From Kofleriaceae bacterium (GTDB taxonomy: Bacteria; Myxococcota_A; Polyangia; Haliangiales; Haliangiaceae), in assembly GCA_024762925.1 (NCBI GenBank), contig JANTGM010000023.1, positions 1 through 63,042 of the forward strand: a stretch of DNA of 63,042 nt, given 5' to 3'. Below the pieces are notes generated by a model. The model had not been told where the DNA came from, did not search any database, and worked only from the letters and a program-made list of their open reading frames with translations. Below, piece after piece: positions 1-63,042 of the stretch. Made by a program: the position numbers and the translations under genes. How positions within the stretch are numbered: the stretch's first letter is position 1; every line of letters begins with the position of its first letter.

Positions 1-84
1 GGGCAAGGAAGGATCTGAGCAACGATGAGCCGAAGGCGTTCAAAGGGCGAAGAACCGAGCCAGGGCGTTCTATGCCTCTGGATC
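1..84. repeat. Terminal inverted repeat, left copy
   Basis: Bases 1-84 are the exact reverse complement of 62956-63039. Weaker similarity continues about 10 bases further in, into the stop codon of the adjacent gene: both edges read ACTAGTG in the gene's direction. The unit contains a direct repeat of about 15 bases, GAGCCGAAGGCGTTC and GAGCCAGGGCGTTC, roughly 30 bases apart. No coding potential is evident. It is most likely one copy of a dispersed intergenic repeat at which the contig breaks. A true terminal repeat of a linear element is the alternative. Confidence 0.9.
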
Positions 85-89
85 CCACA

Positions 90-1055
90 CTAGTTGGCTT
101 CTTTGGCGCTCAGCGCCTCTTCGGCCATCTCATCGAAAGTCATTCGTCCCGCACGCGCGAGCTCATCGTCGTCGTAGAGCCGCATGATGAACTCGCCGGG
201 CGCCCCAACAGCACGACTGAGGACTGGACCTGCGATCTTGCGAATGAGCGGTCGGTTGTAGGCGTCTTGCATGCCGAGCAGGAAGCGGGCAAAGGGTCTC
301 CGCTTGACACCGGGCTTGCGAGAGACAAGATGAATTCGTTTGAAGGCCTCGCGCATGCGCACACCGTCGGGGTCCACCACAGTCATTGGCTCTTGAAAGA
401 CGTCGCGAAAGAACGGCTTGGCGAAGTAGAGCATCTTGAGAACGCTGGCCAGCGTGCGCCTTTGCTCGGCTAGCGATTTTCGAGGCTGCGCGTCAAGCCA
501 ATGCTGATACTCGTCAGACGCGTAGTACTCTGCCATGTGATAGTCGATCGCGATGTGTCGTGACTCGTCGCGGTTGATGAGGTGCATGGCAGCATGGCTC
601 ATGGCGTCATCAACATGATCGTTGATAGAACGAAGGAGCGCCACGTCTAGGATTAGTTCCCCTGCAAGGATATAGGCGTTCGCCACCTCGGAGGAGAAGT
701 TGCGAAGGGCCGCCAAGAAGTGTGGCTGAAACTTCACCAGGCTCTCGTTGAGTGTGTAGTCACGGTACCCATGCACGTTGTAGTGCGCTGCCAAGCGCTC
801 GGCCGCAACTGCATGCCGCTCCTCATCAATCACAAAGCTGTCAAAGATCTTTTGCAACACAGGATCGGTGGCTCGCCGGCGCTGCTCTTCAAAGAGTGCC
901 TTGGCAAGGCGCTCAATTCCGGCCATATCGGTAAAGTACTGAACCACCGCAATCTCGTCATCACGGCTCATTCCCTTTGGCGTGACCGACCAGTCGAGAT
1001 CGTCGACATTCCACTGGCCACGTTCGCACTTCTCCAACATGCGTTCCAGGTTCAT
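90..1055 (-). CDS. Ferritin-like diiron-carboxylate protein
   Basis: A 321-residue soluble protein with no signal peptide. Two helix motifs of the E-x-x-H type, DEERHAV near residue 77 and NRDESRHIA near residue 165, plus further acidic residues in long helices, suggest a four-helix bundle binding two irons, as in ferritin-like oxygenases and oxidoreductases. The substrate cannot be told from the sequence. The gene starts at ATG and its TAG stop lies at the edge of the terminal inverted repeat. A VTT-family membrane gene lies 48 bp upstream on the same strand, so the two may be cotranscribed. The fold is likely; the function is unassigned. Confidence 0.8.
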   Translation of the reverse strand: MNLERMLEKCERGQWNVDDLDWSVTPKGMSRDDEIAVVQYFTDMAGIERLAKALFEEQRRRATDPVLQKIFDSFVIDEERHAVAAERLAAHYNVHGYRDYTLNESLVKFQPHFLAALRNFSSEVANAYILAGELILDVALLRSINDHVDDAMSHAAMHLINRDESRHIAIDYHMAEYYASDEYQHWLDAQPRKSLAEQRRTLASVLKMLYFAKPFFRDVFQEPMTVVDPDGVRMREAFKRIHLVSRKPGVKRRPFARFLLGMQDAYNRPLIRKIAGPVLSRAVGAPGEFIMRLYDDDELARAGRMTFDEMAEEALSAKEAN

Positions 1056-13499: not shown

Positions 13500-13571
13500 C
13501 ATGAAATTCTAGTAGGTTAGCGGCAAACAAGCGTGCATATGCGCCAACCGGGGTTTACGCGCCGAAGTGAG

Positions 13572-13589
13572 TGCAGGCTGGAGCCTGCA
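13572..13589. promoter_or_regulatory. Inverted repeat next to the tandem array
   Basis: Perfect 8-base arms TGCAGGCT and AGCCTGCA around GG. The centre lies about 107 bp upstream of the predicted start of the sigma-54-like promoter at 13485, so it could be an activator site. It could equally be a transcript hairpin beyond the sigma-54 activator gene, as it has no T-run. Confidence 0.4.
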
Positions 13590-13595
13590 GCCCAC

Positions 13596-13781
13596 TCGCA
13601 GCGGGCGTTCTCGCAGCGGGCGTTCTCGCAGCGGCCGTTCTCGCAGCGGCCGTTCTCGCAGCGGCCGTTCTCGCAGCGGCCGTTCTCGCAGCGGCCGTTC
13701 TCGCAGCGGGCGTTCTCACAGCGGGCGTTCTCGCAGCGGCCGTTCTCGCAGCGGGCGTTCTCACAGCGGGCGTTCTCGCAG
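13596..13781. repeat. 15-bp tandem repeat array, 12 full copies
   Basis: Twelve head-to-tail copies of TCGCAGCGGGCGTTC plus a six-base partial copy. Variation is confined mainly to base 10 (G or C) and base 3 (G or A). Because the period is a multiple of three, several frames on both strands are open and encode five-residue repeats such as SGRSR or GVLAA. None has a credible start or a recognisable fold. It lies between the small Cys-rich lipoprotein gene and the sigma-54 activator gene and is treated as non-coding. Confidence 0.9.
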
Positions 13782-13842
13782 CCCTCTCACGGTCACCTCG
13801 TCCGGCACCCCTCTTCCCATCATGTTAGCCACTACAGTCTCC

Positions 13843-37204: not shown

Positions 37205-38490
37205 AACTGGGACCTGTGGTGCACGGAGGCTTGCTGGTGGTGGCTTTGGTCTTCGCATATCAAACCAGCACTCGCAAGAAGGACTCACTTCCCAAGCGCG
37301 GCACACACGCGGTGTGGAAACTAGGAGCGCTGTCTGCGGTTGTTCTTGAGAGCGAGAAGAAGCGCGTTCGAATCGAGAAGCGCGAAGACGAAAACGGCAC
37401 GTACTATTGGGGAGAAGTCACTAGGACTCGCAAGCCCCCCCCCACTCCAAAAGGTGTCGGGCCTGATATGGACGATGCAGGGCCAACTAGCAATGAGCCC
37501 AAAGAAGAGACTACGGTGACGTCTCGCGAGTTTCCGGTGGGCCGCGCAGGCGAGGAGCTGATGCTTCAGTACCAAACGCTTATGGCTTTGCGAGCTCTCG
37601 GCCCAATCGCCTCTGATGACCTTGAACGCTACAACCTGCACGAAAAGACACTCAATCTCACAGCGATCGAAGGTGGGAAAGGAGAGCACTCCCTGCTTCT
37701 TGCGGGTGAGAAAATCTACGGTGGCACGGACCGCTATGCGTATGAAGTTAACGGAGGGAACGGATACGTGATCTCGGGAAAACTCGTACAGCCTCTTGAG
37801 AGTGCTGAGAGCAGTCTGGGTATCCGAAAGGTGCACTCCTATGCCGATAGCAAGGTCACATCGATCGCAATCACGACCACCGCTGGCGACAAGGTGTTGG
37901 TAAAACGTTGGGTGCAAGATGAGGACGGCAAGCATGTTGTTTGGGAGTACGAAGAGACTCCTGGGACATCAGAAGCGTCACTTGCGAGCTTCATCGAGCG
38001 CGTTGCGAAGCTCAAGCCGACTCGCTATGAGCCAACTCTCGAGCCTTCTTCGTTGGTTCATATTTCGACGATGCGCTATCGCGATGCAAGTGGGACATCA
38101 CTTGGCTACTTGGAACTTTACCGACAGCCGGTATCAGCTCAAGAGTTACCGAAGAGGCCTGGGGCACGTCAGCAGACGCAGTACTTCATCAAGACCGAGA
38201 GAACGCGAGTCCTTGGCAAGGTTGGGCGTCTCGACGCAGATCGCGTCGATCAGGACTTGGTAGAACTCTTTGGAATCGCGCCACCTCCACCGTCGCCAGA
38301 GCCCGAGCCGGTGGAGCCTGCAAACGTGCCAGCATCTCCGTCCCCCGCTCCTTCAGGCGCTTCCGCCGTCGCTCCTTCAGGCGCTGCTCCTCCTTCCGCC
38401 GTCGTTCCTTCAGGCGTCGCTCCTTCAGGCGTCGCTCCTTCAGGCGCCGCTCCTCCTTCCGCGGTCGCTCCTTCCGCCGAAGAACGCTAG
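37201..38490 (+). CDS. DUF4340-type protein with a Pro/Ala/Ser repeat tail
   Basis: A 429-residue protein. An N-terminal hydrophobic anchor (VVHGGLLVVALVFAYQTS) precedes a periplasmic beta-rich domain of the DUF4340 type, which usually accompanies GldG-like genes. The last 60 residues are low complexity, built from PSGVA/PSGAA/PSAVA units encoded by 15-base tandem repeats (38344-38482). This tail may span peptidoglycan or vary in length between strains. The start ATG at 37201 overlaps the GldG stop by four bases. The frame is open 33 codons further upstream, but that part lies inside the GldG gene. Confidence 0.88.
   Translation: MKLGPVVHGGLLVVALVFAYQTSTRKKDSLPKRGTHAVWKLGALSAVVLESEKKRVRIEKREDENGTYYWGEVTRTRKPPPTPKGVGPDMDDAGPTSNEPKEETTVTSREFPVGRAGEELMLQYQTLMALRALGPIASDDLERYNLHEKTLNLTAIEGGKGEHSLLLAGEKIYGGTDRYAYEVNGGNGYVISGKLVQPLESAESSLGIRKVHSYADSKVTSIAITTTAGDKVLVKRWVQDEDGKHVVWEYEETPGTSEASLASFIERVAKLKPTRYEPTLEPSSLVHISTMRYRDASGTSLGYLELYRQPVSAQELPKRPGARQQTQYFIKTERTRVLGKVGRLDADRVDQDLVELFGIAPPPPSPEPEPVEPANVPASPSPAPSGASAVAPSGAAPPSAVVPSGVAPSGVAPSGAAPPSAVAPSAEER
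38344..38482 (+). repeat. Imperfect 15-bp tandem repeats in the DUF4340 tail
   Basis: About nine imperfect copies of GCTCCTTCAGGCGTC and close variants, in frame, coding for PSG-V/A-A units. The copy number may vary by slippage without changing the frame. Confidence 0.8.
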
Positions 38491-38640
38491 GGGGAGAGCG
38501 ATGAACCGAGGCAAGGTTGGGGCGCTCAAACGAGCTAGCGTGTCGGGCTTCGTGGTGGAACGAGTGACACATGTTCCTTTGGCGAGAGGGTGCAGCAGTT
38601 TGAGCGCAAAGGACTTTGCCAGACAAATGTGGGCTACCAC

Positions 38641-62213: not shown

Positions 62214-62576
62214 ATGAAAGTAGCCCTCCTCAGCACAGCCCTCGCCTTGGCCGCGTGCAACTCGCACAAGGTCACTTACGATACTAGACTTCCTCGCGGT
62301 CAAGTTCATTCAGAGTGGACCGGTCATTATCTCTACGGAAACATCGGTCACACGGACATCAACGTTCGCAGGATTTGCCCACAAGGCGTCGCGAAGATCG
62401 AGACCTACCTGTCTATCGGAAACGGTTTCGTTGGCGCACTCACCTTTGGCATCTACACGCCGCGCACTGTGCGGATTACGTGTGCCTCTGGCAACACTGC
62501 CATCGCGGCTCTCAACCGAGAAGGAAACGTCCAATACACAATACCGGTTCGCTCAAAGCAGGAGGTGGCACGATGA
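62214..62576 (+). CDS. Bor-like lipoprotein, first of a tandem pair
   Basis: A 120-residue lipoprotein from the ATG at 62214 (signal MKVALLSTALALAAC; the frame reaches back to 62178). The mature part has HSEWTGHYLYGNIGHTDINVRRICPQGVAKIETYLSIGNGFVGALTFGIYTPRTVRITCA, which fits the Bor/Iss family of small surface lipoproteins known from phage lambda and plasmids and linked to serum resistance. In this setting it is probably a housekeeping envelope protein. The stop overlaps the next ATG by four bases. Confidence 0.8.
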   Translation: MKVALLSTALALAACNSHKVTYDTRLPRGQVHSEWTGHYLYGNIGHTDINVRRICPQGVAKIETYLSIGNGFVGALTFGIYTPRTVRITCASGNTAIAALNREGNVQYTIPVRSKQEVAR

Positions 62577-62950
62577 AGTATCTAGCAGTAGTGGCAGTTC
62601 TCGTTAGTGGATGTGCAACGCACTCGATGACGTTTCACAATGGGCCTAGAAACCGAACCGTGACACAGGTGCACGAAAAACCCATGCATCTTTCACTCTT
62701 CAATGGAATGGTAGAGCCAAACTCGGTTCGCTTGGATGAAGAGTGTGGGGCCGACGATTGGGTTCGCATCGACCAGGACGACTCCTACGTAAATCGCTTA
62801 GTCGCTAATCAGACCGACAACACGGTTACGCCAAAGTCGATCACGATTCACTGTGGTCCCTACGATGCACCAATGGCTGCGACCCCCGTTGCTACACCGA
62901 TGACCGCAGGTGCGCAGACTGGCGGCCCTCCCGGCTCGGCTGGCTACTAG
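62573..62950 (+). CDS. Second small lipoprotein, Bor-like
   Basis: A 125-residue lipoprotein with signal MKYLAVVAVLVSGC. The spacing of MTFHNG, EKPMHLSLFNGMVEPNSVRLDEECGADDWVRIDQDDSYVNRLV and SITIHC follows that of the upstream Bor-like protein, so the two look like diverged duplicates. A Pro/Ala/Thr-rich tail of 25 residues follows. AGGAGG lies just before the ATG, which overlaps the upstream stop as ATGA. The TAG stop is embedded in the edge of the terminal inverted repeat. Confidence 0.75.
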   Translation: MKYLAVVAVLVSGCATHSMTFHNGPRNRTVTQVHEKPMHLSLFNGMVEPNSVRLDEECGADDWVRIDQDDSYVNRLVANQTDNTVTPKSITIHCGPYDAPMAATPVATPMTAGAQTGGPPGSAGY

Positions 62951-62955
62951 TGCGC

Positions 62956-63039
62956 GATCCAGAGGCATAGAACGCCCTGGCTCGGTTCTTCGCCCTTTGA
63001 ACGCCTTCGGCTCATCGTTGCTCAGATCCTTCCTTGCCC
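62956..63039. repeat. Terminal inverted repeat, right copy
   Basis: Exact reverse complement of bases 1-84. It begins six bases after the stop codon of the last gene. Similarity to the left copy continues, with mismatches, through that stop codon. Confidence 0.9.
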
Positions 63040-63042
63040 CAG

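Follow-up and report, generated by a model that had tools for sequence, protein, structure and literature searches.

YPAL elements of Yersinia are found immediately downstream of stop codons. In Coxiella, most QMITE2 palindromes are intergenic or lie in 3′ UTRs (PMC5896051). Mobilisation by IS630-Spn1 has been proposed for the repeat unit of pneumococcus (RUP) (PMC2229807), and MITEPsy1 of Pseudomonas syringae is thought to be derived from ISPsy2, possibly an IS5-type element (PMC3189936). IS630 itself is reported to prefer the TA in 5′-CTAG-3′, as stated in the title of a 1991 paper by Tenzen and Ohtsubo that PMC2170065 cites. We describe here a repeat that we interpret, with a probability of about 0.78, as a chimeric, non-autonomous and palindromic MITE family inserted at CTAG by an IS630-like mover, with silent insertions at stop codons and with selection acting as a filter.

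Contig ends and the complete element

The window (the whole 63,042-nt stretch of DNA that was analysed) is contig C23 of a 6.79-Mb, 246-contig Polyangia-related draft genome of an uncultured relative of the myxobacteria. The relatives of a protein encoded in it come from Polyangia/Myxococcota metagenome genomes. The initial annotation had described a perfect 84-bp inverted repeat at the two ends, and direct comparison confirmed it: positions 1–84 are the reverse complement of 62956–63039 with 0 mismatches, and other alignments of the ends, at offsets of −10 to +10, gave at most 3 matching bases at the start. Extended inwards, the repeat covers 1–94 and 62946–63039 (94 bp, 98% identity), the TAG stops included, and both outer genes end at the repeat edge (Table 1). 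The right gene is likelier to start at an in-frame ATG near position 62573, with a lipoprotein-like signal (MKYLAVVAVLVSGC), and a Pfam search with the left gene gave no match. Rfam covariance models returned no match in the window, which contains partial element copies only. Minisatellites with 15–18 bp units are also found in the window, at 13565–13819 and 38360–38494.

Table 1. Features at the two ends of the window
Feature	Coordinates	Strand	Remarks
Element copy, inner part (right half of the window's subfamily)	1..89	+	Cut by contig end; true element extends past base 1; complete homologue at L049:1505-1671
CTAG, target tetranucleotide at element inner edge	90..93	.	Includes the TAG stop of the left gene (92-90, minus strand)
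Left flanking gene, 321 aa	90..1055	-	Stop at 92-90
Right flanking ORF, 211 aa	62315..62950	+	Stop TAG (62948-62950) at element edge
CTAG at inner edge of right-hand copy	62947..62950	.	Right gene stops at its TAG (62948-62950)
Second element copy, inner part, opposite orientation	62951..63042	-	Same end in its GCGCA variant; truncated at the contig end

The repeat is dispersed and multicopy, as had been suspected from the window. A 120-bp query matched its own genome at 42 places among the matches listed, most of them at contig tips, and at least 277 exact 15-base ends were counted, against 0 for a reversed-pattern control. A search for CTAGTGYGNGAT ends gave 292, against 14 for the control. 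This genome carries a few hundred copies. At 43 contig tips, the longest prefix in common with another fetched contig was at most 97 nt, and it was exactly 97 nt in 22 of them. Such a ceiling is what the word length of a graph assembler gives; the apparent length of the repeat (84 or 94 bp) is therefore an assembly limit and not a biological one, and the repeat is the end portion of a longer element, whose outer part shows in contigs that diverge early. The other tips and the 97-nt ceiling bear out the proposal that the assembly broke at a multicopy repeat at both limits of the window: the assembler failed to separate the copies, and one of them is cut off at either end. The element family explains in large part why this draft genome is so fragmented. 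A linear replicon with terminal inverted repeats, which had earlier been kept as the less likely option, or a folded-back read would also leave a contig with a perfect inverted repeat at its two ends. However, dozens of other contigs with unrelated flanks end in the same sequence, complete copies are located inside contigs such as C46, C18 and C12, and the 97-nt ceiling bears the mark of the assembly. We reject both explanations on the strength of the internal copies and the many contig tips, and leave them next to no probability.

We collected 47 complete copies, which were fetched by end sequence and region by region and are not a random draw. They fall into several subfamilies with C..G flanks, mostly measure 166–181 bp between the flanking tetranucleotides, start with TG and finish with CA (5′-TG...CA-3′), and are imperfect palindromes that carry no gene and are too short for a transposase. 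The complete copy of the window's type, L049 on contig C46, reads CTAG-TGTGCGGCTCAGAGG...CTTGCTGGGGCAAG...CTCTGGATCCCACA-CTAG. The 47 copies fold end to end about a central TTGCTGGGGCAAG hairpin, with a median z of −4.4; the outer arms were paired in 46 and the central hairpin was present in 29. At less than ~200 bp, without a gene, in many dispersed near-identical copies, and with terminal inverted repeats and a hairpin fold, the elements are structured as MITEs. Half-elements begin with TGGGGCAAG, and elements combine the left half of one subfamily with the right half of another, with the junction at the central hairpin; together these make the family a set of chimeras.

Half-elements of the form TGGGGCAAG...CA were observed at L111:1447–1555 and L141:1486–1594 and in L017 and L034, some with CTAG on both sides, alongside chimeras with the junction at the hairpin. 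A second repeat, ending GATCGGGACTCAGACGACCGAAGAGGTTGTGAGATACGCTCTAG and also with a CTAG edge, was seen in L053, L068, L136, L157, L164, L167 and L189; it may represent a separate family that shares the target. An integron attC array was set aside as an explanation for the repeat, as its copies mostly lie tens of kb apart. Among 55 relatives, exact ends were found in G002 and G017 only, one in each, and the end-pattern match in G002, which belongs to the same genus, is not a complete element. Searches of the species genome collection and of IMG/VR, which may not include the genome studied here, gave no exact match elsewhere.

Flanking tetranucleotides and stop codons

The elements are flanked by CTAG, in most copies at either end, and less often by CGAG, CCAG or CAAG. 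Read in element orientation, the flanks of the complete copies follow CNAG, with N being T most often and then G. Among 56 candidate flank pairs, 28 were CTAG/CTAG, and matched CTCG/CTCG and CGAG/CGAG pairs were also seen; matched flanks that are not palindromic argue for duplication of the target sequence. Most flanks contain TA within CTAG, and 4-bp matches such as CTCG/CTCG would fit a wider duplication. Unequal flanks, such as CTAG/CGAG, were found in about 30% of the 47 complete copies, a sample enriched for variants because these were fetched on purpose. Where a long gene abuts a copy with unequal flanks, the adjoining flank is usually CTAG.

A palindromic, tetranucleotide-tagged sequence with unequal flanks and half-elements would also be expected of REP-like palindromes moved on single-stranded DNA by a Y1 (RAYT/TnpA-REP) transposase that is guided by the tetranucleotide CTAG. 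Yet a search of the genome for Y1_Tnp (PF01797) found none, while control genomes gave matches; the matched non-palindromic flanks point to target duplication, and a DDE transposase remnant, described below, has the same ends as the family. In a genome without a Y1 transposase we regard this route as highly improbable and reject it.

Element edges meet genes almost exclusively in one reading frame. With rule-based ORF calls and a minimum of 150 codons, 188 CTAG edges had enough flank to be scored. At 79 of them an ORF reaches the edge in the frame that makes the edge TAG its stop, and the other two frames account for 0 and 4; for CTAG sites inside the window, the three frames gave 11, 18 and 10 of 182. 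Edges with six other tetranucleotides (43 in total) met almost no long ORF. The repeat is thus located at gene ends, as the initial annotation had it, and the frame pattern indicates that insertions seldom interrupt genes. Orthologs of 13 edge genes in the same-genus genomes G001 and G002, themselves without the element, mostly have their last residue at the identical position or only a few positions away, with a TAG stop in 11 of the 20 orthologs, so that the insertions sit on native stops and the genes have not been truncated. The end of the left flanking gene is native for the same reason, since its same-genus ortholog (L226) has equal C-terminal length and ends in TGA without an element. 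The suggestion that the repeat supplies gene ends holds in one small respect only: the stops are native, and in a model with TA duplication the element would contribute just the G of TAG. Tandem gene-end copies or short repeats directly 3′ of a stop were also observed in G002 (L214, L218, L226 and L228).

TAG is the commonest stop codon in this genome (26 of 44 window genes and 152 of 273 element-free genes), which is unusual for bacteria. Because TAG ends so many element-free genes, 37 of 119 non-coding CTAG sites away from elements are themselves stops. Among insertion sites with a CTAG edge the figure is 52 of 91 (odds ratio 2.95, p = 2e-4, in a comparison that was made after the pattern had been seen and with slightly different ORF thresholds on its two sides). 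CTAG targeting and selection, with TAG as the commonest stop, explain most of the placement, and a CTAG target combined with the loss of coding and promoter insertions can give the excess at stops. With the stop share above baseline, selection alone may be insufficient.

The same excess, and the strong conserved fold, could be taken to mean that the element actively prefers gene ends, or that it is kept there since its hairpin acts on the upstream mRNA by stabilising or processing it, as has been proposed for YPAL in Yersinia and NEMIS in Neisseria. Stop-codon placement would then have a function and would not be a by-product of CTAG targeting; portable 3′ ends would have been distributed across the genome by a transposase that happens to target the stop codon. 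However, the excess is modest, and the loss of promoter insertions would raise the stop share without any function. No intrinsic terminator (a stem followed by a T-run) was found in complete copy L049, the one copy scanned, and both element ends are found on the gene side (A in 26 cases, W in 25 and B in 13), which leaves no fixed orientation. We consider it unlikely that the elements are directed to stops, or selectively kept there, on account of a 3′ UTR hairpin that benefits the upstream gene. The role in transcript termination put forward earlier loses its footing with the terminator-free copy and with a CTAG target that coincides with TAG and explains the placement.

A candidate mover and a model of silent insertion

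A profile search of the genome for DDE_3, the IS630 catalytic domain, gave four fragments. On contig C40, an A-type end (63 of 65 bases matching) directly joins the C-terminal half of an IS630-family transposase, which matches PF13358 at E 4.9e-21 when its two frames are spliced together. Directly after the transposase stop comes TTCTATGCCTATGATCCAGACACGAG, a window-like end with a score of 25, which was reached by 0 of 20,000 random 60-mers. The C40 copy has the appearance of an IS630-type element that shares the ends of the family and has lost internal sequence. It is the one half-transposase copy that searches of the genome recovered, and they found no intact transposase between these ends. 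An IS630 relative in G042 showed no CTAG in the stretch examined. IS481 was rejected as the mover: its transposase, beside an A-type end at C8:38871, seems to carry different ends of its own and to be a later insertion. The gene in question (G000 C8:38876–40180; L246:277–1580) is a frameshifted IS481-type transposase gene inserted in an A-type element remnant.

In our preferred reading of a MITE family with an IS630-like mover, the elements would insert at CTAG, most likely via an IS630-family (Tc1/mariner) transposase that duplicates TA, and insertions inside genes would be lost through selection. An insertion on a gene ending in ...C TAG would be neutral, because the C-TA of the host and the first G of the element would regenerate TAG and leave the protein unchanged. 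As TAG is the commonest stop, many of the tolerated CTAG sites would be stop codons. This reading draws directly on the copy number, the complete structure, the CTAG flanks, the frame-specific contact with genes, the native gene ends and the 97-nt limit. An IS630 origin is suggested by the C40 remnant and the published CTAG preference; the step that regenerates TAG would follow if TA, and not CTAG, is duplicated, and selection would probably be the filter on insertion sites. Several points stand against it: no intact transposase was found between these ends; unequal flanks, at about 30% of a variant-enriched sample, are unlike a simple target duplication; CGAG/CGAG copies do not fit a strict TA target; and the share of stops at insertion sites lies above the baseline. 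A CTAG/TA target that overlaps the TAG stop and restores it, so that no such insertion alters the protein, would offer a transposon a route to hundreds of copies in a gene-dense genome. The family could also serve to test whether MITE hairpins located in 3′ UTRs alter the fate of mRNA.

Relation to described palindromic elements

The family resembles RUP in being a short palindromic MITE; RUP has ~100 copies, IS630-family-like ends and a TA target (PMC2229807). RUP differs in its length of 107 bp, its AT-rich host and its unrelated sequence, and the excerpt of PMC2229807 describes neither CTAG nor stop-codon placement for it. The CTAG target is shared with IS630 of Shigella (PMC2170065), and the C40 copy bears half of an IS630-type transposase. 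Unlike autonomous IS630, the elements here have no gene, and some are located at CGAG, CCAG or CAAG. Correia/NEMIS and ERIC/RU-1 are comparable as elements of 100–200 bp with terminal inverted repeats, TA ends and long stem-loop transcripts, but their sequences are unrelated and they are shorter, at 107/155 bp for NEMIS and 127 bp for ERIC; the excerpted text names no CTAG target for them (PMC2229807).

MITEPsy1 is likewise a MITE found at CTAG or YTAA, which it duplicates on insertion, but it is 100 bp long, has the ends GGAAGGTCTG... and is not a full palindrome (PMC3189936). YPAL/RU-2 (Yersinia, ~168 bp) and QMITE2 (150–190 bp) are palindromes of similar size (PMC5896051). In contrast to the CTAG/TA target here, they duplicate 3–26 bp and 7–11 bp, respectively, of variable sequence (PMC5896051; PMC2229807). 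The family, itself palindromic, is a further MITE beside RUP, NEMIS, ERIC, MITEPsy1 and QMITE2, and its distinctive trait is a target that coincides with the commonest stop codon of its host.
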